Assembly: GCA_900556965.1 (NCBI GenBank)
Contig: USQV01000012.1
Location: forward strand, 1 to 11,779
Reading direction: 5' to 3'
DNA: 11,779 nucleotides
Source of the DNA: an uncultured Clostridium sp.
Lineage (GTDB): Bacteria; Bacillota_A; Clostridia; Lachnospirales; Lachnospiraceae
Shown: positions 202 to 11,779 of the stretch, piece after piece
Numbering within the stretch: the first letter of the stretch is position 1
Layout: every line of letters begins with the position of its first letter
The notes under the pieces: model-generated
The model's database searches: none
The model's input: only the letters and a program-made list of their open reading frames with translations
Told to the model about the DNA's origin: nothing
Program-made: the position numbers and the translations under genes

Positions 202-2046
202 ATGGAAAAGATCAACATTGCCATCGCGGATGATAACGAACGCATGCAGGAAATGCTTGGGAACGTCATAAAACAGGATGACACGCTTGAACTGATCGGG
301 CAGACCGGAAACGGAAATGATATCTACAGTATCATCCGCGACAAAGAACCGGACGTCGTACTGCTTGACATTTTCATGCCGAAGATGGATGGTCTGACTG
401 TGGTACTCACATACGAAAACGGAACACTTTCCAAAGCAGTTACCAGAGGAAACGGAGAGATCGGTGAGGTCATAACAGCCAATGCAAGAACGTTTGTTAA
501 TCTTCCCATGTCGATCCCATATAAAGACAGGCTGATACTGCGGGGAGAGGCGGTGATCACTTATTCTGACTTTAAGAAGCTTAATGAGTCCATTGATGAC
601 GTAGATGCCAGATATAAAAATCCGAGAAATCTGTGCAGTGGCTCGGTCCGTCAGCTAAACAGCAAGATCACAGCAGAGAGAAATGTTCGTTTTATGGAGT
701 TTTCTCTGGTGCAGGCAGATGGCATCGATTTTCATAATTCCAGAAAAGAGCAGTTTATCTGGCTGTCCGGCCTCGGCTTTGAAACCGTCGAATTTGTTGA
801 AGTGACCGCGGAAAATCTTTCGGAGGCAGTGGCCGGGTTCGCGAAACGGATCGAAGATAATGACATTCCATCAGATGGACTGGTACTTTTATACGATGAT
901 ATTGCTTACGGAATGTCTTTAGGAAGAACGGCAAAATTTCCGAAGGATTCCATTGCATTTAAATGGGCCGATGAATTGCAGGAAACAACTCTTTCCTATA
1001 TAGAATGGAGTGCATCGCGGACAGGGCTTATTAATCCGGTCGCTGTATTTGAGCCGGTGGAGCTTGAGGGGACTACCGTGAGCCGGGCAAGTGTCCACAA
1101 TATCAGTATTATGGAAGGGCTTAAACTTGGAGCCGGAGACAGAATCACCGTCTATAAGGCCAACATGATCATTCCGCAGATCGCAGAAAATCTTACGAGA
1201 AGCGGTGTACGGGACATTCCCCAAACATGTCCGGTGTGTGGAGGTAGGACGGAGATACGAAGTGTCAATGATGTCAAGGCTCTTTATTGCACTAATCCGG
1301 AATGTCAGGCTAAGAGGATAAAAAGCTTTGATCTGTTCGTAAGCCGGGATGCGCTGAATATTGACGGATTGTCAGAAATGACGCTGGAGAAATTTATTGC
1401 CGCCGGTTTTATCCATGAATATGATGATATTTTCCATCTGGACAGACATAAAGAGGAAATCGTCGGGATGGAGGGCTTTGGGCAGAAATCCTACGAAAAC
1501 CTGATCGCAGCTGCCAAAACATCCTCCCATACGACGCTTCCCCGACTGATATTCGGACTGGGGATCGCCGGGATCGGACTCGCAAACGCAAAAATGATAT
1601 GCCGACACTTTAAATTTGATCTGGATGCCATGAGAAAGGCAGACAGAGAGGAGCTTTGTGCCATAGATGGCATCGGAGCCGTTCTGGCGGATGCGTGGGT
1701 CGGATATTTTAAGTCAGATGAGAATAATAAAGTGTTGGATCATCTGCTGGAGGATCTGACCTTTGAAAATGAAAATACAGAAAGCACAGATCGGAGCTTA
1801 GAGGGCAAAACCTTCGTGATCACGGGCTCAGTGGAGCATTTTGCAAACCGCAAGGAGCTGCAGGAATATATTGAAGCCCGGGGCGGAAAGGCTACCGGAT
1901 CTGTAACCGCAAAGACCAGCTATTTGATCAACAACGAGGTGACATCAAATTCGTCGAAGAATAAGAAGGCAAAGGAATTGGGAGTGCCGATCATTTCGGA
2001 AGCGGATTTTCTGAGGATGACAGGAGAAGAAAGCAATGCCGATTAA
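202..2046 (+). CDS. Chimeric protein: Spo0A receiver-domain start fused to NAD-dependent DNA ligase lacking its N-terminal domain
   Basis: The protein has 614 residues. Residues 1 to about 65 are the first half of a Spo0A receiver domain: acidic pair D10/D11, phosphoacceptor D56, then MPKMDGL. From K61 onward it is LigA: nucleotidyltransferase K61-x-D63-G64, TRGNG at 81-85, RGE at 114-116, NPRN at 140-143, FK at 253-254; OB fold about 270-335; zinc finger C343, C346, C363, C368; helix-hairpin-helix region about 375-510; BRCT about 531-608. LigA domain Ia, which binds the NMN half of NAD+, is absent, as are the second half of the receiver and the Spo0A DNA-binding domain. The join falls in a K-x-D-G-L motif common to both parents, with no stop or frameshift. 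By family knowledge it should neither phosphorelay nor self-adenylate from NAD+ normally. It may be a true rearrangement or an assembly chimera. Its end overlaps metA. Confidence 0.9.
   Translation: MEKINIAIADDNERMQEMLGNVIKQDDTLELIGQTGNGNDIYSIIRDKEPDVVLLDIFMPKMDGLTVVLTYENGTLSKAVTRGNGEIGEVITANARTFVNLPMSIPYKDRLILRGEAVITYSDFKKLNESIDDVDARYKNPRNLCSGSVRQLNSKITAERNVRFMEFSLVQADGIDFHNSRKEQFIWLSGLGFETVEFVEVTAENLSEAVAGFAKRIEDNDIPSDGLVLLYDDIAYGMSLGRTAKFPKDSIAFKWADELQETTLSYIEWSASRTGLINPVAVFEPVELEGTTVSRASVHNISIMEGLKLGAGDRITVYKANMIIPQIAENLTRSGVRDIPQTCPVCGGRTEIRSVNDVKALYCTNPECQAKRIKSFDLFVSRDALNIDGLSEMTLEKFIAAGFIHEYDDIFHLDRHKEEIVGMEGFGQKSYENLIAAAKTSSHTTLPRLIFGLGIAGIGLANAKMICRHFKFDLDAMRKADREELCAIDGIGAVLADAWVGYFKSDENNKVLDHLLEDLTFENENTESTDRSLEGKTFVITGSVEHFANRKELQEYIEARGGKATGSVTAKTSYLINNEVTSNSSKNKKAKELGVPIISEADFLRMTGEESNAD
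382..399 (+). other. Spo0A/LigA fusion junction
   Basis: These six codons read K-M-D-G-L-T. Upstream sequence is Spo0A-like (DIFMPKMDGL) and downstream is LigA-like (DGLTVVLTYENG). The KxDGL core fits both families: in Spo0A it follows the phosphoacceptor strand, and in LigA it holds the AMP-accepting lysine. The breakpoint therefore cannot be placed more finely than about 15 bp from this sequence alone. Confidence 0.75.
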
Positions 2047-2956
2047 AATTCAGAATGATCTGCCCGCACGGGCAATATTGGAAAGTGAAAATGTATTTAT
2101 TATGGATGAAAGCAGGGCGGCAAGTCAGGATATCCGCCCCCTTGAGATCCTGATATTGAACCTTATGCCGCTCAAGGAGGATACGGAGACACAGCTTTTG
2201 CGGGCATTATCCAATACACCGCTGCAGGTAGAATGCACATATATGACCATGTCCACCCACGAGTCCACCCACACGTCGGCCAGCCATTTGAACAAGTTTT
2301 ATGTTACGTTTGAGGACATAAAAAAACGCCGCTATGATGGAATGATCATCACAGGAGCGCCGGTGGAGCTGATGGAATTTGAGCAGGTAAACTACTGGGA
2401 GGAGTTAACAAGGATCATGGAGTGGAGCAAGACTCATGTGACCTCAACGCTGCATCTATGCTGGGGAGCTCAGGCCGGGTTATATTACCACTATGGAATA
2501 CAGAAGCATTTAAGGGCAGAAAAGCTTTCCGGAATCTACAGACATACGACCTTAGACAGAAAAGTACCGCTGATGCGAAGCTTTGATGATTACTTTAACT
2601 GTCCGCATTCCCGTTATACCGAAGTCCGGGAGGAGGATATCCTGAAGCATCCCGAGCTTCGGATCCTTGCCCGCTCCGAGGAGGCTGGCGTATTTCTTAT
2701 AATGAACCGAGACGGGAGCCAGATTTTTGTTCAGGGACATCCGGAATATGACAGAATGACCTTAGACAGTGAATATCACAGAGATCTTGACCGGGGGCTT
2801 AAACCGGTATTACCGTGTCATTATTATGATAACGATGATCCCTCAACGGTTCCGGCACTGACATGGAGAAATATGGCCAACACCCTTTATACAAACTGGC
2901 TGAATTTTTATGTATATCAGGTAACTCCGTATACGCTGGAGGAAGACGCGGAGTAA
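2036..2956 (+). CDS. metA: Homoserine O-acetyltransferase, MetA family
   Basis: MetA activates the hydroxyl of L-homoserine with an acyl group from acyl-CoA, the committed cytoplasmic step to methionine. The 306-residue length is typical. Catalytic C142 (LHLCWGAQAG) and the H235/E237 pair (GHPEYDR) are at the positions known for the family. Residue 111 is Glu (GAPVELMEFE), which in characterised MetA proteins selects acetyl-CoA, while Gly111 selects succinyl-CoA; hence acetyltransferase rather than succinyltransferase. The start overlaps the last 11 bp of the ligase gene and has its own AGGAG at 2022-2026, so translation is probably coupled and transcription comes from upstream. No SAM or T-box riboswitch is apparent before it. 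Confidence in the family is very high; acyl donor is inferred from one residue. Confidence 0.95.
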   Translation: MPIKIQNDLPARAILESENVFIMDESRAASQDIRPLEILILNLMPLKEDTETQLLRALSNTPLQVECTYMTMSTHESTHTSASHLNKFYVTFEDIKKRRYDGMIITGAPVELMEFEQVNYWEELTRIMEWSKTHVTSTLHLCWGAQAGLYYHYGIQKHLRAEKLSGIYRHTTLDRKVPLMRSFDDYFNCPHSRYTEVREEDILKHPELRILARSEEAGVFLIMNRDGSQIFVQGHPEYDRMTLDSEYHRDLDRGLKPVLPCHYYDNDDPSTVPALTWRNMANTLYTNWLNFYVYQVTPYTLEEDAE

Positions 2957-3006
2957 GCCACCATCCGGCCTCACCGTAAGAGTTCGGGCTATCCTCTTAA
3001 GGTGGC
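2957..3006. terminator. Inverted repeats between the convergent metA and HAD genes
   Basis: GCCACC (2957-2962) pairs with GGTGGC (3001-3006), and inside it TAAGAG (2977-2982) pairs with CTCTTA (2994-2999). The element covers the ends of two convergent genes, and T-rich sequence follows on the plus strand from about 3015. It could end metA transcription, but the stems are interrupted and the T tract is displaced, so the call is weak. Confidence 0.35.
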
Positions 3007-3456
3007 AATCAGCCTTTTTGGTTTTTCTAAAAGAGCAAGAGCATCAAGGATTGAGCGGGTACAGATGTCTGTGGCCGCGATCAATGCAGAGCAGGCGCCT
3101 TCTTCCGCCATTACGGCGATGGAGAGGGCGCTTTCTTTGCACATAAGGCAGTCATTTCTTCCGTTTCCGATCGCCACACACCGGTCGGCCCCTAGGGAGC
3201 GGACAATATTAAGCTTTGCTTCCATGGCAGAGCCCTTTGGAAATGTCCGTATTGTAAGCGGGAGTCCGCAACAGTTTGAAGCGGCGGTTCCGTGGGTATC
3301 GGCGGTCAGAACATAGATGGAATAGGTGTGGGAGAGGCGGCAGATCGCCTCCTTTGTTTCCGGTGCAATCGTGCCGTCGAGGGCGATCGTTCCGTTATAG
3401 TCAAGGACAAGGCAGGAGAGCTCGAGCTCTTTGTAGCCGGGAATATCAATTTTCAT
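2989..3456 (-). CDS. HAD-superfamily hydrolase resembling the soluble P-type ATPase domain (COG4087-like)
   Basis: A small cytoplasmic HAD protein of 155 residues with no membrane segment. Motif I is D19-Y-N21-G-T (LVLDYNGT), motif II is T51 in VLTADT, and motif IV is GNGRND (97-102), like the GDGxND of P-type ATPase phosphorylation domains. The usual second aspartate of DxDGT is Asn, so the general acid/base of ordinary HAD phosphatases is missing; this resembles P-type ATPases, where that position is Thr. The opening (MKIDIPGYKELEL) and the end (KPKRLIATLRG) fit the family of stand-alone soluble P-type ATPase-like proteins, whose function is not established. GGAGG lies upstream of the ATG (complement of 3463-3467). 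It is divergent from pstSCAB and shares its control region, but a phosphate-related role is only a guess. Confidence 0.85.
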   Translation of the reverse strand: MKIDIPGYKELELSCLVLDYNGTIALDGTIAPETKEAICRLSHTYSIYVLTADTHGTAASNCCGLPLTIRTFPKGSAMEAKLNIVRSLGADRCVAIGNGRNDCLMCKESALSIAVMAEEGACSALIAATDICTRSILDALALLEKPKRLIATLRG

Positions 3457-3489
3457 TTATAGCCTCCGTTGCTGCGGCAGCAGTTATTC

Positions 3490-3501
3490 GATTATGGATA
3501 G
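3490..3501 (+). repeat. GATTATGGATAG box, copy 1
   Basis: This 12-bp sequence recurs exactly at 3555-3566, 65 bp downstream (about six helical turns). A related GATTGCGGATA lies at 3643-3653. All three are in the HAD-pstS intergenic region, suggesting binding sites for a shared regulator, which I cannot name. Confidence 0.45.
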
Positions 3502-3507
3502 GCAGCA

Positions 3508-3530
3508 AAGCGGATTGCGAATATCCGCTT
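3508..3530. promoter_or_regulatory. 8-bp inverted repeat in the HAD-pstS control region (possible operator)
   Basis: AAGCGGAT (3508-3515) and ATCCGCTT (3523-3530) are perfect inverted copies around a 7-base centre. The site lies just downstream of the putative minus-strand HAD promoter. No T tract follows on either strand, which argues against a terminator and for an operator or a leader hairpin of the HAD mRNA. Confidence 0.45.
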
Positions 3531-3544
3531 GACGAAACAACTAC

Positions 3545-3575
3545 AGTATAGCATGATTATGGATAGATTTTACAA
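3545..3575 (-). promoter_or_regulatory. Putative minus-strand promoter for the HAD gene
   Basis: On the minus strand TATACT (complement of 3545-3550) is preceded by TGC, making an extended -10. A TTGTAA -35 candidate (complement of 3570-3575) is 19 bp upstream, longer than ideal, which the extended -10 may offset. Transcription would start near 3538, placing the inverted repeat 3508-3530 in the early leader. Confidence 0.4.
3555..3566 (+). repeat. GATTATGGATAG box, copy 2
   Basis: An exact copy of the 12-mer at 3490-3501. It lies between the -35 and -10 of the putative HAD promoter and about 40 bp upstream of the pstS -35, so a bound protein could affect both genes. Confidence 0.45.
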
Positions 3576-3585
3576 AGATTTTAAG
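3569..3585 (+). promoter_or_regulatory. Possible PhoP-type direct repeat
   Basis: TTTACA (3569-3574) and TTTAAG (3580-3585) are 11 bp apart in phase, resembling the TT(A/T/C)ACA direct repeats bound by PhoP in Bacillus. They lie about 23-39 bp upstream of the pstS -35. Only the first hexamer fits well and no third repeat is clear, so this is weak support for phosphate control. Confidence 0.25.
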
Positions 3586-3607
3586 CAAAGCTATTGAAAA
3601 AAACAAT

Positions 3608-3636
3608 TTGATTCTTTTGAATCATTGAATTATACT
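3608..3636 (+). promoter_or_regulatory. Promoter of the pst operon
   Basis: TTGATT (3608-3613) and TATACT (3631-3636) are spaced 17 bp apart. A palindrome, TGATTC-TTTT-GAATCA (3609-3624), overlaps the -35 and spacer and may be an operator. Transcription from near 3643 would give a leader of about 53 nt. Confidence 0.6.
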
Positions 3637-3640
3637 TTAT

Positions 3641-3674
3641 CTGATTGCGGATAATCCTATCCGAAGCTTATCAG
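3641..3674 (+). repeat. Hairpin in the pstS leader
   Basis: CGGATA (3648-3653) and TATCCG (3658-3663) form a perfect 6-bp stem with a four-base loop; CTGAT (3641-3645) and ATCAG (3670-3674) can pair outside it. It falls at the predicted start of the pst transcript, ahead of the ribosome site at 3684-3688. It could stabilise the 5' end or be a protein site; the stem contains the GGATA core seen in the boxes upstream. Confidence 0.4.
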
Positions 3675-3695
3675 TTAATTTATGGAGGATTAAAA

Positions 3696-4697
3696 ATGAA
3701 GAAAAATCTTACAAAGGTACTTGCCGCAGCTATGTCCTTAAGCATGCTGACCGCTTGCGGCGGAAACACAACGGCAGCTACAACAGCTGCAGCAACAGAA
3801 GCAGCTACAACAGAAGCAGCAACAGAAGCTGCTACCACAGAGGCCGCAACAGAGGCAGCACAGGAAGATAAATTCCAGTCCTCGATCCTGTTCTGCGGTT
3901 CCACCTCTCTTTACCCGATCATGTCCTCTCTGGCATCTTCCTTTACCGAGAAGTATGTCACATGGGATAAGGTAGATGCGTCCTTCCCGGCAGAAAACAT
4001 CTCTATTTACGTTGCACCGGGCGGATCCGGAGTAGGCGTAAGTGCAGCAGTAGATAAGACAGCAGACTTTGGTATGCTGGCACGTGCGATCAAGGATTCC
4101 GAGGTAGAAAAGCTTGGCCCGGATTATCAGAGCTTTACCGTAGCTCGTGACGCTCTTACCGTATCTGTAAATGTTGAGAATCCGATCTGCGACGTTATGG
4201 ATGACATGACAACAGATATGATCCGTCAGATCTTTGCAGGCGAGATCACAAGCTGGGATAAGGTAGACGCTTCCCTTCCGGCAGAGCCGATCAACGTATA
4301 TATCCGTGACCTGTCCGGCGGTGCTTATGAGGTATTCCAGAAGGCCGTTATGGGTGAGAGCGAAGTAACTGCTTCCGCAACACAGTCCGCATCCATGACT
4401 GAGCTGGCTACAAACATTGCAAATGATAAGTGGGGCATCGGCTATGCAGGCTTTGGTGCATTCAACAAGATCAATGCAAAGGGTGAGGCATTAAAGGCAA
4501 TGAAAGTTGATGGCGTTGAGCCGACAGTTGAGAACATCATCAGCGACGCCTACAAGATCCAGCGTCCGGTTATGTTCGTAACAGGCGACAAGCTGACAGC
4601 TTCTGAGCAGGCCTTCGTTGACTATGTATTCTCTCAGGCAGGATACGATGCTACAGAAGCCAATGGTTACATTCCGGCATTCACACCGGCAAACTAA
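3696..4697 (+). CDS. pstS: Phosphate ABC transporter, substrate-binding lipoprotein PstS
   Basis: PstS captures inorganic phosphate outside the membrane and delivers it to PstC/PstA. The start is the ATG at 3696, preceded by GGAGG (3684-3688); a longer frame from 3645 would place the leader and signal peptide internally. The 333-residue precursor has a lipoprotein signal with lipobox L18-T-A-C21, then a Thr/Ala/Glu-rich linker (about 24-56) likely spanning the cell wall. Binding-site segments are GST at 69-71, GGSG at 109-112, AR at 129-130, and R204-D205 with S207. WDKVDASxPAE occurs twice, at 90-100 and 187-197. The second copy sits where PstS normally has the GEIxxW loop, and the first looks like an inserted duplicate. 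A terminator-like hairpin follows, which may keep PstS in excess over the permease. Confidence 0.95.
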   Translation: MKKNLTKVLAAAMSLSMLTACGGNTTAATTAAATEAATTEAATEAATTEAATEAAQEDKFQSSILFCGSTSLYPIMSSLASSFTEKYVTWDKVDASFPAENISIYVAPGGSGVGVSAAVDKTADFGMLARAIKDSEVEKLGPDYQSFTVARDALTVSVNVENPICDVMDDMTTDMIRQIFAGEITSWDKVDASLPAEPINVYIRDLSGGAYEVFQKAVMGESEVTASATQSASMTELATNIANDKWGIGYAGFGAFNKINAKGEALKAMKVDGVEPTVENIISDAYKIQRPVMFVTGDKLTASEQAFVDYVFSQAGYDATEANGYIPAFTPAN

Positions 4698-4720
4698 TTG
4701 AGAAAATAGGCTATTTAGCG

Positions 4721-4763
4721 AGGGAGCAGGTGCATGAGCCATCTGCTCTCTTTTAGCTTTTTT
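4721..4763 (+). terminator. Terminator-like hairpin between pstS and pstC
   Basis: Bases 4721-4732 pair with 4740-4751 in a 12-bp stem with two G-U pairs and a seven-base loop (4733-4739), followed by TTTT (4751-4754) and TTTTTT (4758-4763). The pstC ribosome site begins just after, at 4765. Such hairpins after binding-protein genes give partial termination or protect the upstream mRNA, so most transcripts may carry only pstS. Confidence 0.7.
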
Positions 4764-4775
4764 CAGGAGGAAATT

Positions 4776-5663
4776 ATGAGAAAAAAGATCGACTCTGCGT
4801 TTTCCGTCCTTATTTATCTTCTCACGGCATGTTCGATCATGGCGTTGGGATTTGTGATCTACTTTATCGTGAAAGAGGCGCTCCCGCTGTTTCAGGAGGT
4901 CAGTCTTTCGGAATTTTTGCTGGGAAAACGATGGATGCCTATCGATTATACAGGAACGACTGCCTTTGGAATCTTTAATTTTATCGTGGCCACTGTTTAC
5001 GTTTCATTTACGGCAATGATCTTGGCGGTGGGGATTGGTCTCGGGGCGTCTGTGTTTTTATCCTGTGTTGCTACAGAGAGCATGTGCGGCATCCTGTATC
5101 CCTTTGTGGATCTTCTGGCAGGAATCCCGTCTGTTGTTTATGGCTTTATCGGTCTTCAGGTGCTGGTCCGTATTTTCCTGAAGGCGGGCGTCCGCACAGG
5201 AACGTGTGTACTGGCGGCAGGTATCCTGCTGGCTGTTATGCTTCTCCCGTTTCTGGTCTCCTCCTGCAGTGAGACCATCCGGAAGGAGAAGAAAAAATAT
5301 GAAGCTGCTGCGGCCGCTCTGGGGATTGGCAGGTGGTATGCGATCGCAACGATCATTCTTCCCGCTTCATGGAAAAACATCCTGTTATCCATGATCCTTG
5401 CAATCGGACGTGCCATGGGGGAAACGATGGCCGTTATGATGGTAATGGGAAATGCCAATCTTTTTCCGAGACTGCTGGGAAAGAGTGAGAGCATTGCCTC
5501 GGTGATCGCACTGGAAATGGGAACCGCAGAATACGGGAGCACTCATTACCATGCCCTGTACGGGGCCGGTCTGGTGCTGATGCTTTTATTGTTTATTATT
5601 AATGTAGGGATCAATATGCTCCGCAGACGGATCGTTTCAAATCAGGGGAGGGATGCAGAATGA
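4776..5663 (+). CDS. pstC: Phosphate ABC transporter permease PstC
   Basis: One of two membrane subunits forming the phosphate channel. The ATG at 4776 was chosen because AGGAGG (4765-4770) precedes it and it opens with a basic stretch before a hydrophobic segment; the in-frame ATG at 4734 lies inside the hairpin. The 295 residues contain about six membrane segments (roughly 9-32, 63-98, 105-134, 143-163, 203-225, 262-282). Family landmarks are GIPSVVYGF (116-124), the EAA loop that contacts the ATPase (E176-A-A, then LP at 195-196), and GRAMGETMAV (211-220). Its stop overlaps the pstA start as ATGA. The length and motifs are normal for PstC. Confidence 0.94.
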   Translation: MRKKIDSAFSVLIYLLTACSIMALGFVIYFIVKEALPLFQEVSLSEFLLGKRWMPIDYTGTTAFGIFNFIVATVYVSFTAMILAVGIGLGASVFLSCVATESMCGILYPFVDLLAGIPSVVYGFIGLQVLVRIFLKAGVRTGTCVLAAGILLAVMLLPFLVSSCSETIRKEKKKYEAAAAALGIGRWYAIATIILPASWKNILLSMILAIGRAMGETMAVMMVMGNANLFPRLLGKSESIASVIALEMGTAEYGSTHYHALYGAGLVLMLLLFIINVGINMLRRRIVSNQGRDAE

Positions 5664-6490
5664 GATGGCTTGGAAATCTGATCAAAGCATGGGCATACAT
5701 AAGCTTTGCACTGGTATGTGCAGTCATTCTGTTTCTGTTCGGCTTTGTATTTTACCGAGGCGCCGGAACGATCAGCATGGAATTTCTGACCGAGGCGCCG
5801 CGCGGTCTGATCCTCGGCGAAGAAGGCGGTATTTTCCCGGCGATCATAGGAAGCCTGATGTTTACGGGAACCGCTCTTGTATTAGGCGGGATACCGGCCA
5901 TCGCAACAGCGCTTTTTGTTGTATTTTATTGCAGTAACCGGTATCTGGAGGAAGGGATCCATCTTGTGATCCAGTGTATTTCCGGGATCCCATCGATCGT
6001 ATTGGGGCTTTTTGCCTATAGCTTTCTTGTACGCGATCTGGATTTCGGAAGATGCATATTTTCCGCAGGCGTCGCTCTGGCGATCATGATCCTTCCGTTT
6101 ATCGAGGTCAGGGCCGAGAAGGCCTTCAGAGAGGTTCCTGTCCACATCGTTCAGTCCTCCTATGCCCTTGGCTGCTCCAGACTTTATACGATCTCAAGGA
6201 TCATTCTTCCCTCCTGTCGGGGAGAGCTGGTATCCGGCTTGATATTGGGAGGCTGTTATGCCATGGGAGCTACGGCCCCGATGATCTTTACCGGAGCGGT
6301 CGCCTATGCAGCAGTGCCGGACAGCCTGTTTGCTCCGGCTATGGCCCTTCCGCTCCATCTGTATCTTCTTGTGGCCCAGGGAGCCACATCGATGGATACA
6401 GCTTACGGAACGGCCTTTGTGATGATGGCGATCATCCTGCTCAGCAATCTGCTGGCAACGGTATATGCAAGGAGGAGTGAAAAACGATGA
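5660..6490 (+). CDS. pstA: Phosphate ABC transporter permease PstA
   Basis: The second membrane subunit of the phosphate importer, pairing with PstC. It has 276 residues and about six membrane segments. GGIFPAIIGSL (56-66), SGIPSIVLGLFAY (108-120), an EAA-type cytoplasmic loop (about 164-184, ending IILP) and MGATAPMIFTGA (202-213) are PstA landmarks; the last matches the G-E/A-T-A-P region typical of this subunit. The start overlaps the pstC stop by 4 bp, with GGGAGGG upstream (5645-5651), and the end overlaps pstB by 4 bp, so the three membrane-complex genes are translationally coupled. Nothing appears broken or missing. Confidence 0.94.
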   Translation: MRWLGNLIKAWAYISFALVCAVILFLFGFVFYRGAGTISMEFLTEAPRGLILGEEGGIFPAIIGSLMFTGTALVLGGIPAIATALFVVFYCSNRYLEEGIHLVIQCISGIPSIVLGLFAYSFLVRDLDFGRCIFSAGVALAIMILPFIEVRAEKAFREVPVHIVQSSYALGCSRLYTISRIILPSCRGELVSGLILGGCYAMGATAPMIFTGAVAYAAVPDSLFAPAMALPLHLYLLVAQGATSMDTAYGTAFVMMAIILLSNLLATVYARRSEKR

Positions 6491-7236
6491 AAGAACTCAT
6501 AAAACTGGAAAATATCGGTGTTTCCTACGACGGAAAGCCGATATTAAAAGATGTTTCAATGAATATATATCCCAACAGGATAACGGCTATTATGGGCCCT
6601 TCCGGATGCGGAAAGACAACGCTCCTTAGGACCATGAACGGACTGTTGTGGGAGGAGCCGGGGGCAGAGGTCCTCGGACAGCTGCTGCTCCACGGAAAAA
6701 ATATCAGGGAAATTCCGGTAGAAGCCTTAAGAAAGCAGGTGGGGCTTGTATTTCAGACCCCGTCTCCGTTTCCTTTTTCCATTTATAAGAATATGACTTA
6801 CGCGTTAAAGTATTATGGAGAACGGGATAAGAATAAGCTTAAGGAGATGGTAACAGAAAAGCTAAAGATGGCCGGACTTTATGAAGAAGTAAAGGATGAG
6901 CTGAATAAAAGTGCATTAAAGCTTTCCGGTGGGCAGAAGCAGCGTCTTTGTATCGCCCGGGCCCTGACGGTGGAGCCGGAGGTTCTGCTTTTAGACGAAC
7001 CCTGCTCGGCCCTCGATGTCAGATCGTCGGCAGTAATAGAAGCTATGCTGACAGAGCTTAAGAAAAAATATACGATCGTCATCGTGACCCATAACATTGC
7101 ACAGGCAAAAAGGATCGCGGATGATGTTGCCTTTGTATTCGAGGGACGGCTGGTTGAATACGGAAAGGCCGAAGAATTATTTGAGGATCCCAAAAAGAAG
7201 GAGACCAGATCGTTCTTAGACGGGATCTACGGCTAG
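6487..7236 (+). CDS. pstB: Phosphate ABC transporter ATP-binding protein PstB
   Basis: The cytoplasmic ATPase powering phosphate import. All nucleotide-binding motifs are intact in 249 residues: Walker A GPSGCGKT (37-44), Q-loop Q90 in VFQTPSPFPFSIYKN, signature LSGGQKQR (146-153), Walker B with D170-E171, D-loop SALD (174-177), and switch H202. The Q-loop followed by P-x-P-F-P-x-S-I-Y is characteristic of PstB among ABC ATPases. It overlaps pstA by 4 bp. It is the last gene of the operon; the usual phoU does not follow, since a terminator and a minus-strand gene come next. Confidence 0.95.
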   Translation: MKELIKLENIGVSYDGKPILKDVSMNIYPNRITAIMGPSGCGKTTLLRTMNGLLWEEPGAEVLGQLLLHGKNIREIPVEALRKQVGLVFQTPSPFPFSIYKNMTYALKYYGERDKNKLKEMVTEKLKMAGLYEEVKDELNKSALKLSGGQKQRLCIARALTVEPEVLLLDEPCSALDVRSSAVIEAMLTELKKKYTIVIVTHNIAQAKRIADDVAFVFEGRLVEYGKAEELFEDPKKKETRSFLDGIYG

Positions 7237-7272
7237 ATGAAGGGACGACTCAACGATCCTTTGCGAAAAGAA

Positions 7273-7321
7273 AAAGACCCTGTTCCGAACTTGGCTTGTC
7301 CAAGATCGGGATCGGGTCTTT
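7273..7321. terminator. Bidirectional terminator between pstB and the asparaginase gene
   Basis: AAAGACCC (7273-7280) pairs with GGGTCTTT (7314-7321), and CTTGG (7290-7294) with CCAAG (7300-7304) at the tip, with partial pairing between. On the minus strand the stem is followed by a long T-rich tract (complement of the A-rich 7266-7275), ideal for ending the asparaginase transcript. On the plus strand TCTTTGTTG is a weaker tail for the pst operon. Confidence 0.8.
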
Positions 7322-7345
7322 GTTGCATCTGCGAATGGGGCGGGA

Positions 7346-8359
7346 TCAGTCGGAGACCGCATTCCAGAGAATGTCGTGTCCGATGGTCTTATAAAATATT
7401 TTCTTAACCTGCTTCGGATCGGAGGTTTGACCGAGGATCCACATAAGCTTCGTGACGGTTGCCTCCAGAGTCATGTCGTAGGATTCGATCAGACCGAAGG
7501 TGTTTTTGATCTTCTGGCCGACCTCATAGACGGACATATTACTGCCTTCCTGAGTTACCTGGGTCGTCATGACAACGATCTTTTTATTTTCGACCATTTT
7601 CTCGATGGAATGGTAGAAATCTCCGGATTCGTAGGAGGGAAGTCCGCCTACACCGAAGGATTCGATAACGACCGCATCATAGTGGTCTGCCATGTAATCC
7701 AGAATTGAGGAGTCCATGGAGGGAATCAGCTTAAGTAGTGCCACATGGCTGTTTAATTCGTGGTAGAAACGGACATTTTCCTTATCCTGCCATTTATCAT
7801 CAATATAGAACAGGATCTGGTCATCCTGTATAACAGCCAGATACGGGAAATTGATGCTGGAAAAGGCGTTGTAGCTCTTTGTGCGCTCCTTTTTGCCTCT
7901 TGTTCCGGCGATCACCTTGCCGTCGAAAACGATATTTACGCCGTGGGCACGTTCACAGGATGCAAAACGGAGGCTGTCTAAAAGGTTTGTCCGCGCATCA
8001 GTCACATCCAGATCGATAGGCTTTTGTGCGCCGGTGATCACGATAGGCTTATTGGAGTGCTGAACAAGGTAAGACATGGCAGCGGCCGTATATGCCATGG
8101 TGTCCGTTCCGTGGCAGATCACAAAGCCGTCATAGTTATCATAATTTTCCTCAAGCACCTTAGAAAGCATCAGCCAGTGCTTGGGGTGGATATTTGTACT
8201 GTCAATATTGAGAACCTGAATTGCGTCTACTTCACAGAAGGAACGGGCTGCAGGCACATAGGATAAGAGCTCATCACCGGTAAGGAGCGGAGTCAGGCCG
8301 GAATCTCCGCGCTTGCAGGCGATAGTACCGCCGGTTCCAAGAAGAAGGATATGTTTCAT
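7346..8359 (-). CDS. ansA: Type I L-asparaginase
   Basis: It hydrolyses L-asparagine to aspartate and ammonia. The 337 residues carry the conserved asparaginase pattern: nucleophile T12 in GTGGTIA, S54 in the DST segment, T85-D86 in HGTDTM, and K161 in the RTKS segment; ITGAQKP at 108-114 is also typical. No signal peptide is present, which fits a cytoplasmic type I enzyme rather than a periplasmic type II one. The start at 8359 (MKHILLLGTGG) follows a purine-rich AAAGGGGAAA, rather distant at about 11 nt. The frame stays open to 8566, but that stretch contains the promoter at 8403-8431, so the longer version is rejected. Closely related glutaminase/asparaginase activities cannot be excluded. 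Single-gene unit ending at the terminator 7273-7321. Confidence 0.92.
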   Translation of the reverse strand: MKHILLLGTGGTIACKRGDSGLTPLLTGDELLSYVPAARSFCEVDAIQVLNIDSTNIHPKHWLMLSKVLEENYDNYDGFVICHGTDTMAYTAAAMSYLVQHSNKPIVITGAQKPIDLDVTDARTNLLDSLRFASCERAHGVNIVFDGKVIAGTRGKKERTKSYNAFSSINFPYLAVIQDDQILFYIDDKWQDKENVRFYHELNSHVALLKLIPSMDSSILDYMADHYDAVVIESFGVGGLPSYESGDFYHSIEKMVENKKIVVMTTQVTQEGSNMSVYEVGQKIKNTFGLIESYDMTLEATVTKLMWILGQTSDPKQVKKIFYKTIGHDILWNAVSD

Positions 8360-8402
8360 AGAAAATGTTTCCCCTTTCCCATACATAAGTAATAATACAT
8401 AA

Positions 8403-8431
8403 AGTATATCATAGGGAAAACAGGACTTCAA
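8403..8431 (-). promoter_or_regulatory. Promoter of the asparaginase gene
   Basis: On the minus strand TTGAAG (complement of 8426-8431) and TATACT (complement of 8403-8408) are exactly 17 bp apart. The leader before the ATG at 8359 would be about 38 nt. This fixes the start of the gene downstream of the promoter. Confidence 0.65.
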
Positions 8432-8455
8432 CAAGTGACCCTTAATTTTCAAATT

Positions 8456-8470
8456 TTTGTTTACAACAAA
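8456..8470. repeat. Short palindrome between asparaginase and the DUF4250 gene
   Basis: TTTGTT (8456-8461) and AACAAA (8465-8470) flank a three-base centre. It lies about 25 bp upstream of the asparaginase -35 and near a TTTACA -35-like hexamer on the plus strand (8460-8465), for which no convincing -10 was found. It may be an operator for divergent genes. Confidence 0.3.
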
Positions 8471-8537
8471 CACATTTTGCGGCATGATAGAGATATAGAT
8501 AAATTTAAACTTCAGGATGCAGAAAGGGGGCGGCATT

Positions 8538-8717
8538 ATGGCATCTGTACCGAAGGATCCGGTCATGCTCTTAAGCTATATCAATACACAGCTTAGAGAT
8601 AATTATCCGGACATGGAGGAGCTCTGTTCGGCTCTTTTGCTCTCAAAGGAGGAGGTGGATAAGACACTTTCTTCTATCGGTTATGTATATGACCGGGAGA
8701 AAAATAAATATGTATAG
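8538..8717 (+). CDS. Small DUF4250-family protein
   Basis: A 59-residue acidic protein without signal or membrane segment. The pattern PKDPVMLLSYINTQLRD at the start, a short helical middle with EELC and SKEEVDKTL, and the ending SIGYVYDREKNKYV match the DUF4250 family, common in Clostridia and of unknown function. The middle looks like a small helix-turn-helix-type fold, but no DNA contact can be claimed. The ATG at 8538 was chosen because AAAGGGGG (8523-8530) precedes it at a normal distance; an in-frame ATG at 8517 would put that site inside the gene. A membrane-protein gene follows after 29 bp, possibly co-transcribed. Confidence 0.82.
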   Translation: MASVPKDPVMLLSYINTQLRDNYPDMEELCSALLLSKEEVDKTLSSIGYVYDREKNKYV

Positions 8718-8746
8718 CTCTGCCCACTTTCTGCCAGACTAACAGC

Positions 8747-9199
8747 ATGAGCAGAGTAGAGTACAGACAAGAGTTTTTAAGAAATTTTATGAAATGCGGG
8801 CTTGCCGGATGGGGTATGGAGATCATGTATACAGCAGCAGGCTCTATCGCGGCCGGAGACAGATGCCTGATGGGACGGACTTCCCTTTTGATGTTTCCGA
8901 TTTATGGGCTTGGGGTGCTTTTGGTACCCATCAGCAGCTTTCTGGATCGATGGCTGGAAAACGGAGACAAGCTTACCTTAAGAGATCGGATATGGCGCCA
9001 CGGGATCAATGATATGGTGCTGATATTTTTAGCGGAGTATCTGTTCGGATCCCTGCTCCGGCTTTATCAGATCTGTCCGTGGGACTATTCAGGGTGCCTG
9101 TTTAATGTGGATGGAGTGATCCGTCTGGATTTTGCACCCTATTGGTTTTTCGCCGGGCTGTTATTTGAAACGCTGACTGGCGGCTTCCGGAAAACATAG
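8747..9199 (+). CDS. Small integral membrane protein, PF06541 type (putative ABC-transporter type IV family)
   Basis: The 150 residues form about four hydrophobic segments (roughly 14-34, 44-63, 88-106, 128-145). GWGMEIMYTA near the start, SLLMFPIYGLG, EYLFGSLLR, CPWDYS and IRLDFAPYWFFAGLLFE are the conserved blocks of PF06541, a clostridial membrane family whose name suggests transport without experimental support. It follows the DUF4250 gene by 29 bp. Its ATG has no recognisable Shine-Dalgarno sequence, and the next in-frame ATG (8789) has none either; translation may depend on coupling to the preceding gene, or the true start may be a near-cognate codon such as the CTG at 8720. Function unknown. 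Confidence 0.8.
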   Translation: MSRVEYRQEFLRNFMKCGLAGWGMEIMYTAAGSIAAGDRCLMGRTSLLMFPIYGLGVLLVPISSFLDRWLENGDKLTLRDRIWRHGINDMVLIFLAEYLFGSLLRLYQICPWDYSGCLFNVDGVIRLDFAPYWFFAGLLFETLTGGFRKT

Positions 9200-9250
9200 C
9201 AGACTTAAGCCGGGAAAAAGGTTAAAAAAAAGAAAGAAAAGGTGATGAGA

Positions 9251-9982
9251 ATGATACGATTGATCATGGTTGCGATAACGGTAGTCGGATTCCTGATATT
9301 CGGATATCCGCTTTTAATGATCCAGAATGCGATCGGAAAAAAGGATGCGCATAAACGGGACGTGCAGAGCTTAAAGATTGTTCAGGGCGTGTTTTCTCTT
9401 ATCCTGCGTCTGGCGGGCGTGACAGTCACGGTAAAGGGAGAAGAAAATATCCCTAAGGATCAAGCTGTCCTCTATGTGGGAAACCACAGAAGCTATTTTG
9501 ATATCCTCGTGGGTTACACCACGGTTCCCGGGCTGATGGGCTTTGTAGCCAAGTCCGAGATGAGGAAGATCCCTCTTTTAAGAAGCTGGATGGAGAATGT
9601 AAACTGCCTGTTTTTAGACAGAAAGGATATCAAAGCCGGCCTTAAGATGATCTTAGAGGGGATCGAGAAGGTAAAAAGCGGCATTTCCGTGTGGATCTTC
9701 CCGGAGGGAACAAGAAACCGGAATGAAGATATCCGGGAGCTGATGATCTTCAAGGAAGGAAGCCTAAAGATCGCGGAAAAATCCGGATGCCCCGTGGTTC
9801 CGGTGGCAATGTCCCATACGGCAGAGGTATTTGAAAAGCACTTTCCGTTTATCCGTCCGGCCCATGTGACGGTTTATTACGGAAAACCGTTTTACATCCG
9901 GGATCTGGATCCGGAAAATAAAAAACATGCCGGAGCTTATACCCGGGAAGTGATCCGGGATATGCTTGAGGAAATAAAATAA
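9251..9982 (+). CDS. plsC: 1-acyl-sn-glycerol-3-phosphate acyltransferase (PlsC family)
   Basis: It transfers an acyl chain to lysophosphatidic acid, giving phosphatidic acid for membrane lipids, at the inner face of the membrane. The 243 residues start with a hydrophobic segment (about 4-25). They hold the acyltransferase blocks NHRSYFD (78-84, catalytic H79 and D84), FLDRKD (121-126), FPEGTRNR (150-157) and VPVAMSH (183-189). The ATG at 9251 is chosen for its spacing from AAGGTGA (9239-9245); the in-frame GTG at 9242 and ATG at 9245 lie in that site and are less likely. It is followed closely by pheA with a 31-bp gap containing a tandem repeat. Substrate is inferred from the family. Confidence 0.9.
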   Translation: MIRLIMVAITVVGFLIFGYPLLMIQNAIGKKDAHKRDVQSLKIVQGVFSLILRLAGVTVTVKGEENIPKDQAVLYVGNHRSYFDILVGYTTVPGLMGFVAKSEMRKIPLLRSWMENVNCLFLDRKDIKAGLKMILEGIEKVKSGISVWIFPEGTRNRNEDIRELMIFKEGSLKIAEKSGCPVVPVAMSHTAEVFEKHFPFIRPAHVTVYYGKPFYIRDLDPENKKHAGAYTREVIRDMLEEIK

Positions 9983-9999
9983 TCGACAAATAATCGACA
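9978..9999 (+). repeat. Perfect 11-bp tandem duplication
   Basis: AATAATCGACA occurs twice in direct succession (9978-9988 and 9989-9999). The first copy contains the plsC stop codon; the second ends just before the AGGAGAAAAGGA ribosome site of pheA. It looks like a replication-slippage duplication with no coding effect. Confidence 0.7.
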
Positions 10000-10013
10000 G
10001 GAGAAAAGGACAG

Positions 10014-11150
10014 ATGAAGAAGCTTGACTTGATGGAATGCAGAAATAAGCTGGATGTGATCGATAAAGAGATCGTAAGGCTTTTTGAGGAAAGAATGAGT
10101 GTCTGCGGCGATGTGGCTGAATATAAAATAGCAACGGGAAAAGCTGTTTATGATGCAGAGCGGGAAAAGCAGAAGATCGCTGCGGTGGAGGGATATGCCC
10201 ATGGAGAATTTAATAAAGAAGCGGTCAGAGAGATATTTTCCCAGCTTATGACCATCAGCCGCCGATACCAGTACGGGCTTCTTCGCAAGAACGGAAAAGT
10301 ATCACCGATCGATTTTAAACTGGTGAAGGAGATAAAAAGAGACGGTGTGCGTGTCGTATTCCAAGGCGTAGAGGGCGCATACAGCCACGCCGCCACAAAG
10401 CTGTATTTTGGTGAGGCAGCGGATACCTACCATGTGGAGCAGTTTGAGGATACCATGAAGGAGCTTGAAAAAGGGCGTGCGGATTATGCCGTGCTTCCTA
10501 TTGAAAACTCTACCGCCGGTTTTGTAATCAGCAATTATGATCTGCTCTCAAAATATCAGGTATGTATTGTCGGTGAGGTCTATGTACCGATCGAACACAT
10601 GCTTGTGGGGCTCCCTCAGGCAGAGCTTTCAGATATAAAAACGGTTTATTCCCATAATCAGGCTTTGATGCAGTGCAGCGAATATTTAAGCGGCCACCGC
10701 GAATGGAGACAGATAAGTGCGGTCAATACGGCCGCTGCCGCTAAAAAGGTCATGGAGGACGGGGATAAGACTAAAGCTGCCATCGCCAGCCGCGAGGCCG
10801 GAAGGCTTTACGGGCTGAAGGAGCTGGCAGCTGCCATAAATGATAAAAAGGGAAACACCACCCGCTTTATCATTCTCTCGCATCACGCAGTATACGCAGA
10901 AAAGGCGGGAAAGGTCACGATCACCTTTGAGCTCCCTCATGTCAGCGGATCCTTATACAATATTCTCGGAAATTTTATTTTTAACGGCCTCAACATGATG
11001 ATGATCGAGTCCAGACCGATACCGGAAAGACCGTTTGAATATCGGTTCTTTGTGGATTTTGAGGGAAACTTAAGTGAGGAAGCGGTGCAGAACGCCCTTA
11101 CCGGGATCCGTGCGGAGGCATCTTCCATGAGGATCCTTGGCAATTATTAA
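10014..11150 (+). CDS. pheA: Bifunctional chorismate mutase / prephenate dehydratase (P-protein)
   Basis: It converts chorismate to prephenate and then to phenylpyruvate for phenylalanine synthesis in the cytoplasm. Three domains fill 378 residues. Residues 1-90 are an AroQ-type mutase with R10, R27, K38, D47, R50 and E51 at the expected active-site spacing. Residues about 112-288 are the dehydratase, with FQGVEGAYSHAA (116-127), PIENSTAG (162-169) and the catalytic TRF motif (283-285). Residues about 299-376 are the ACT regulatory domain with ESRP (332-335); the usual GALV-type segment reads GSLY (312-315). Retained ESRP suggests phenylalanine feedback inhibition. AGGAGAAAAGGA precedes the ATG. 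The next gene starts 10 bp after the stop, so the two are likely one operon; no leader-peptide attenuator was seen. Confidence 0.95.
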   Translation: MKKLDLMECRNKLDVIDKEIVRLFEERMSVCGDVAEYKIATGKAVYDAEREKQKIAAVEGYAHGEFNKEAVREIFSQLMTISRRYQYGLLRKNGKVSPIDFKLVKEIKRDGVRVVFQGVEGAYSHAATKLYFGEAADTYHVEQFEDTMKELEKGRADYAVLPIENSTAGFVISNYDLLSKYQVCIVGEVYVPIEHMLVGLPQAELSDIKTVYSHNQALMQCSEYLSGHREWRQISAVNTAAAAKKVMEDGDKTKAAIASREAGRLYGLKELAAAINDKKGNTTRFIILSHHAVYAEKAGKVTITFELPHVSGSLYNILGNFIFNGLNMMMIESRPIPERPFEYRFFVDFEGNLSEEAVQNALTGIRAEASSMRILGNY

Positions 11151-11160
11151 GGAGGCGCCT

Positions 11161-11779
11161 ATGGCAGGATACATATTTGCAGCCATTGATGTGGGATCCT
11201 TTGAGCTGGAGCTGGGGATCTATGAGGTATCCGGAAAAAACCGGCTGAAAAAGCTTGATCATGTCCGTCATGAGATCGCCCTCGGACGCGATACCTATAA
11301 AAACGGAAAGATCAGCTATGAGCTGATGGAGGAGCTATGCCGCGTTCTGGGAGAATTTGTGGAGATCATGGATGGCTATAAGGTCACCGACTACCTGGCT
11401 TACGGGACCAGCGCGATGCGCGAGGCGAAGAATATGCAGATCGTCCTTGAACAGATCCGTGTCCGAACCGGGCTTAAGGTGCAGATCATCAGTAACTCCG
11501 AACAGAGATTTTTAAGCTATAAGGCGATCGCGGCGGCGGATGAGGAATTTGATAAAAATATCCAGCTGGGGACGGCCATCGTTGATGTGGGATTCGGAAG
11601 CATGCAGATCTCTCTGTTTGATGAAAATCTTCTCGTCTCGACAGAAAACCTTCCGCTGGGAGTATTACGGATCCGGGAAAACTTTCAGGCAGTAAATTCA
11701 ACGGTAGACAGAACCAGTGAGATCATCGGAGAGATGGTCGGAAGCGAGCTGGCTACCTATAAAAAGATATATTTAAAGG
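11161..11779 (+). CDS. Ppx/GppA-family phosphatase, N-terminal part (runs off the window)
   Basis: The open frame continues to the last base, giving 206 complete codons of a protein that should be longer. The ASKHA-type fold of exopolyphosphatase / pppGpp phosphatase is seen in AAIDVGS (7-13), YGTSAMREA (81-89), an SNSEQRF segment (111-117) where relatives have SGxEEAxL, and VDVGFGS (141-147) where DIGGGS is usual. The family degrades inorganic polyphosphate or converts pppGpp to ppGpp; which one cannot be told here. Two phosphate-binding loops deviate: the usual DxGSNS reads DVGSFE, and DIGGGS reads DVGFGS. It has an excellent AAGGAGG (11149-11155) and lies 10 bp after pheA. Full length, and a possible ppk neighbour, are out of view. 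Confidence 0.85.
   Translation, partial: MAGYIFAAIDVGSFELELGIYEVSGKNRLKKLDHVRHEIALGRDTYKNGKISYELMEELCRVLGEFVEIMDGYKVTDYLAYGTSAMREAKNMQIVLEQIRVRTGLKVQIISNSEQRFLSYKAIAAADEEFDKNIQLGTAIVDVGFGSMQISLFDENLLVSTENLPLGVLRIRENFQAVNSTVDRTSEIIGEMVGSELATYKKIYLK

Follow-up and report, generated by a model that had tools for sequence, protein, structure and literature searches.

The window, that is, the whole stretch of 11,779 nucleotides of contig USQV01000012.1 that was analysed here (presumably a metagenome record), begins on its forward strand with the upstream region of a spo0A gene, followed by spo0A codons 1 to 66 and two bases of codon 67 (positions 1-401, with the coding part at 202-401). From position 402 it continues, again on the forward strand, as the gene for the DNA ligase LigA, which is entered immediately behind the catalytic-lysine motif and runs to its full C-terminal end at position 2046. 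These two parts constitute a single open frame of 614 codons (202-2046), with the start of Spo0A, the remainder of LigA and no frameshift; the frame is preceded by a ribosome-binding-like AGGAG, and its chimeric product of 614 residues is denoted P0001 below. Further downstream on the forward strand lies metA (2036-2956), encoding a homoserine O-acyltransferase, the start of which overlaps the end of the ligase frame. The rest of the window (2957-11779) holds what we take, by inspection, to be a HAD-like gene on the reverse strand, a pst cluster, an asparaginase gene on the reverse strand, two small genes, an acyltransferase gene, pheA and a ppx-like gene.

Architecture of the chimeric frame

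On the Spo0A side, the Pfam receiver domain PF00072 was found at P0001 residues 6-68, where it covers only profile positions 1-61 of 111 and is therefore not a complete Spo0A receiver domain. The Spo0A model TIGR02875 matched residues 2-68 across model positions 1-67 of 262, with 59.9 bits against a cut-off of 200 bits, and no Pfam match to the C-terminal Spo0A DNA-binding domain was found in P0001. On the ligase side, the match to the adenylation domain PF01653 starts at profile position 47 of 253, so that this domain is truncated at its front; behind it come OB, zinc-finger, HhH and BRCT domains (PF03120, PF03119, PF12826/PF14520 and PF00533), and PRK07956, the LigA model, matched residues 59-606 with 469.2 bits against a cut-off of 369. 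PF22745, which we take to be the N-terminal domain Ia of LigA, was listed for an intact LigA, P0002, and was absent from the Pfam scan of P0001. The open reading frame and the Pfam, TIGR02875 and PRK07956 matches all bear out the in-frame Spo0A-LigA chimera that had been proposed for 202-2046 in an initial annotation of the window; its account of the Spo0A portion, as a promoter region followed by codons 1 to about 65, needs correcting in that the Spo0A-side DNA makes up the whole left end (1-401).

Compared with known systems, P0001 is like LigA (PRK07956, TIGR00575) in the match of its residues 59-606 and in its 99% identity to an intact LigA, but unlike LigA it is without the N-terminal domain and the adenylation-domain start that P0002 possesses. 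Similarly, it is like Spo0A (TIGR02875) in that its residues 1-67 are 100% identical to Spo0A of Fusicatenibacter saccharivorans, but unlike Spo0A it has about half of a receiver domain and no match to a DNA-binding domain. At face value, the protein would keep the catalytic lysine motif but have neither the N-terminal domain of a ligase nor the latter half of a receiver, and we ascribe no function to it. Domain Ia of LigA is needed for the reaction with NAD+. Because the N-terminal domain is missing, ligase activity of P0001 is predicted to be absent, and no reaction with NAD+ would be expected from general knowledge of NAD-dependent ligases. Residue 166 (window 697-699) is Glu in P0001 and Ala in all 120 listed LigA homologs, P0002 among them, and may be either a strain variant or a base error.

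Sources of the two arms

The left arm (1-401) consists of chromosomal DNA much like that of F. saccharivorans. It is identical at 399 of 401 bases (two differences) to MT835781, a record from a human faecal sample, and at 388 of 401 (13 differences) to a contig of F. saccharivorans D41t1 (L072, genome G007). Both of these records part from the window at position 402, and over 402-440 they differ from it at 25 of 39 positions; both continue into a complete Spo0A of 266 residues. When seven genomes of the genus of G007 were searched, the left arm was found at 97% in G007 only, with main matches of 69-75% in the other six; this distribution, together with the near-identity to MT835781 and L072, assigns the left arm to F. 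saccharivorans or a very close strain. MT835781.1 itself (L001), which carries spo0A and is labelled Bacteriophage sp., is 97.2% identical to an F. saccharivorans contig over 18.1 of its 19.2 kb and looks like bacterial DNA in a virome. LigA is also encoded in other MT83... records of that series, with identities of up to 66% to P0243, a second chimera that is described below.

The right arm (402-11779) leads to another Lachnospiraceae species. P0001 residues 61-614 are identical to P0002 (658 residues; source 'ena', a 4,218-bp contig) at 550 of 555 aligned positions, or 99%, and the first 103 residues of P0002, comprising its N-terminal domain and the start of its adenylation domain, are replaced in P0001 by Spo0A sequence. 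P0002 was the best of 120 listed P0001 homologs, with the next at no more than 87%; these homologs cover 90% of the query, that is, the LigA part only, and none of the 120 matched Spo0A residues 1-58 at E<=1. The LigA of F. saccharivorans itself is only 66-67% identical to the LigA half of the window. The neighbouring metA product is 99% identical to P0122 over 98% of the query, and ligA and metA are adjacent in relatives at loci L111, L112, L104, L113, L114 and L117.

The genes ligA through pheA lie collinear in the window and on contig C37 of genome G032 (L111), except for approximately 3.5 kb extra in G032 that sits after metA, before the next gene common with the window; the ppx-like gene was matched in G279 (L117) only. 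Because this gene order is kept in contig C37, the right arm up to pheA reads as one coherent piece of chromosome. Both in the window (3645-7236) and in G032 the pst cluster lies between metA and the asparaginase gene, and in locus L003 the asparaginase match starts approximately 135 bp past the metA match. At the level of DNA, ligA-metA was matched at E<=1e-250 in 17 of 397 genomes of the family, with a best identity of 77% (G351), and the two genomes of the genus of G002 gave DNA identities of 74-75%. Given that best ligA-metA match of only 77%, the right-arm species was not found among the 397 family genomes. Base composition does not tell the arms apart (G+C of 0.47 for 202-401 and 0.48 for 402-11779).

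Since the Spo0A part is 100% identical to F. saccharivorans and the LigA part 99% identical to another lineage, the pair does not come from one lineage; each side of the window matches a different species better than any single one. By these comparisons of sequence, two source lineages are mixed in the window.

Intact forms of both genes were present in relatives. A Spo0A match was found in all eight genomes searched, namely seven LigA-side relatives and F. saccharivorans, and was confirmed over residues 1-264 in G001-G005, at 54-58% identity, the call for G006 coming from an N-terminal match only. Spo0A of all seven LigA-side relatives is 56-58% identical to that of F. saccharivorans and lies on a separate contig from ligA. 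A single LigA gene was found at E<=1e-50 in each of the eight genomes (split, in G001, between two parts of a single contig). Both genes could be placed in 12 genomes, several of them MAGs, and lie on different contigs in 11 of these 12; in F. saccharivorans they are found on the same contig, C15, approximately 26 kb apart. The relatives examined have spo0A and ligA-metA apart, an arrangement that the initial annotation had named as one part of a test of whether the join is genuine. The genome of Clostridium porci (G006) contains two LigA-like genes, on contigs C3 and C56, that are 73% and 47% identical to the query.

The shareable block at the join and a second chimera

The window is identical to its Spo0A parent, as represented by MT835781, from position 97 to position 401, with the first difference at 402. 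P0002 has Trp-Lys-Met-Asp-Gly at the join, and Trp is found at that position in 118 of the 120 listed homologs; because Trp is encoded by TGG only, both 380 and 381 should be G in the LigA parent, whereas 380 is C in the window. With the Spo0A parent leaving the window at 402 and the LigA parent differing at 380, any block common to the two parents lies within 381-401. Its upper bound is 21 nt, in that the Spo0A parent was seen and the codons of the LigA parent at 380-401 were deduced from the P0002 protein and from relatives. At this point both Spo0A and LigA encode K-M-D-G-L-T-V, in the same frame. The similarity of about 15 bp given for the join in the initial annotation should accordingly be replaced by one of up to 21 nt. 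Among nine LigA loci compared with the block, the closest (L104) has one mismatch in 21 and the others have two to five.

The propensity of the two genes to coincide at this motif was examined across 191 loci, which provided 55 Spo0A sites, 48 of them distinct, and 130 LigA sites, of which 95 are distinct; filtering out sites that lack 'DG' left both counts unchanged. In register, at least 15 nt are common in 39 of 4,560 site pairs, at least 18 nt in seven of 4,560, and all 21 nt in one of 4,560, counts in which the sites are not independent, because related genomes recur; when the register was shifted by one to three codons in either direction, none of the 4,560 pairs had 12 or more nucleotides in common in any of the six shifted registers. 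The 21-nt pair consists of Spo0A of G011 and LigA of Claveliimonas bilis (a complete genome), and so belongs to two different genomes. A back-of-envelope expectation, assuming uniform composition, is that genomes of 3.6 and 3.1 Mb would have approximately five 21-mers in common by chance. Over shorter stretches, 21-mers of a 36-kb F. saccharivorans contig were found in a stretch of G279 (six, counting both strands) and in none from G032, G290 or G002, and no 21-mer is common to that contig and window 402-11779 once the block is excluded; with any found in only one of the four relatives' stretches, a 21-nt block is no frequent occurrence over such lengths, which counts against the misassembly explanation.

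A second Spo0A-LigA chimera, P0243, was recovered in a search that used chimera residues 1-100 as query and candidates of approximately 338-1074 residues. Among the best 120 of 7,860 matches, it is the only one with both PF00072 and ligase domains, and further copies may exist beyond those 120. It is a protein of 605 residues from a contig of 2,058 bp, identical to P0001 at 460 of 609 aligned positions (76%), and its join falls at the same codons. For its LigA part, the closest of 397 genomes is Clostridium fessum (G004), at 90%, and for its Spo0A part the closest of 299 genomes is G150, at 79%; the latter part shows 50% identity to the Spo0A of G004 and just 56% to the F. saccharivorans protein. 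Judging from these identities, P0243 seems to join two lineages that are not the two of the window. We read it as another misassembly at this hot spot. The case is weaker than that of the window, because neither parent could be traced to a species, and of all the observations it is the one that could most readily be held against a reading of the window as misassembled.

The join was not encountered elsewhere in its exact form, the junction pattern giving no matches in genome_contigs and none in viral_contigs. Viral contigs likewise gave no match to the LigA-side pattern and no relatives of P0243 or P0001, and a plasmid search gave no match. None of the LigA matches listed for the 397 family genomes (386 with a match) starts before query residue 26, and the Spo0A N-termini listed from a search of 299 genomes, of which 98 matched at E<=1e-18, all lie in open frames of at most 378 residues. 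A literature search on Spo0A with DNA ligase and fusion returned only a match concerning ALR receiver domains, and one on F. saccharivorans with Spo0A found none. A conserved family of Spo0A-LigA fusions was considered and rejected: P0243 is the only listed case, and comes from another species pair.

Other unusual fusions were noted in the same material. In P0260 (597 residues, on a 5,761-bp contig) a Spo0A gives way, close to its C-terminal domain, to a PTS EIIC-like protein (PF02378, PF00072, PF08769), and this is probably another false or broken fusion. P0311 (742 residues) carries a pseudouridine-synthase-type protein (PF00849, PF01479) in frame ahead of LigA, and may be a read-through fusion of neighbours. 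In G032 (L111 30-1105), an open reading frame similar to the front part of P0311 stops 13 bases before the ligA start.

Explanations for the join

The window is almost certainly a chimeric metagenome contig that unites two species by misassembly, and is to be flagged as such. The initial annotation had left a choice between misassembly and biology; the first is supported by halves from two species, by intact parents of both and by a shareable block of 21 nt or less. Its biological alternatives, in which the cell would have lost full Spo0A and LigA domain Ia and might be asporogenous, or in which the chimera would be a duplicate with a new role, found no support. We infer that the two parts were joined by assembly software running at a small k-mer size, and not by chimera formation in the library or during PCR or by recombination in a living cell. 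The assembler would have passed from F. saccharivorans spo0A into ligA of a second gut Lachnospiraceae species by way of a short exact repeat present in both genes, of at most 21 nt, at 381-401. Such a repeat would exist in both genes because K-M-D-G-L-T-V is encoded at that place in each of them, in one and the same frame, and the frame would remain open across the join because of that common motif. The formation of chimeric contigs from k-mers common to several genomes is described as a failure mode in two reports (PMC7299287, PMC8171044), and the window resembles the chimeric nodes of multi-species de Bruijn graphs treated there, in which two genomes are joined at a common stretch. Unlike the usual chimeric contig, it has its join in frame inside two protein genes, a feature that follows from both genes encoding the same heptapeptide.

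The same two-species structure and short microhomology would also be produced if molecules of the two species had been joined at short homology before sequencing, by template switching or multiple-displacement amplification, and the resulting library or PCR chimera had then been reproduced by the assembler. Molecules of that kind are rare, however, and usually lose to true assembly paths, and the length of the block is near that of the smallest k-mer commonly used by assemblers; we therefore regard this origin as very unlikely. A real recombinant, in which the LigA-side chromosome took up F. saccharivorans DNA at the block and acquired a true fusion gene, perhaps as a second ligA, would account for a join that is in frame, for the complete LigA C-terminus and for metA downstream, and P0243, in which two other species meet at the same codons, resembles at first sight the recurrence of a real fusion. 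That reading is nonetheless extremely improbable. A recombinant cell without another ligase would lack LigA domain Ia; the eight genomes searched each have a single LigA gene, with spo0A of the seven relatives on a separate contig; and inheritance does not explain P0243, whose Spo0A part is only 56% identical to that of F. saccharivorans and whose own halves indicate two lineages. A recent true fusion in a living strain was rejected as unlikely on the same grounds. We attach hardly any credence to a further proposal, in which the in-register identity of spo0A and ligA would be a recombination hot spot of gut Lachnospiraceae and P0001 and P0243 its independent products, carried by rare living strains with an extra fusion gene.

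With misassembly as the preferred explanation, the window is best regarded as two separate pieces, abutting at 381-401. The apparent fusion of Spo0A and LigA domains would then be an artefact and not a new protein, and a tempting false fusion is removed from consideration. A chimera of this type, being in frame, can pass at the level of the gene, where it presents an open frame, an AGGAG, a complete C-terminus and a normal downstream neighbour. The codons for KMDGLTV let two species carry the same 21 nt, so that the same false protein can recur in public data, and a recurrence such as P0243 could be taken for evolution in analyses of domain fusion.
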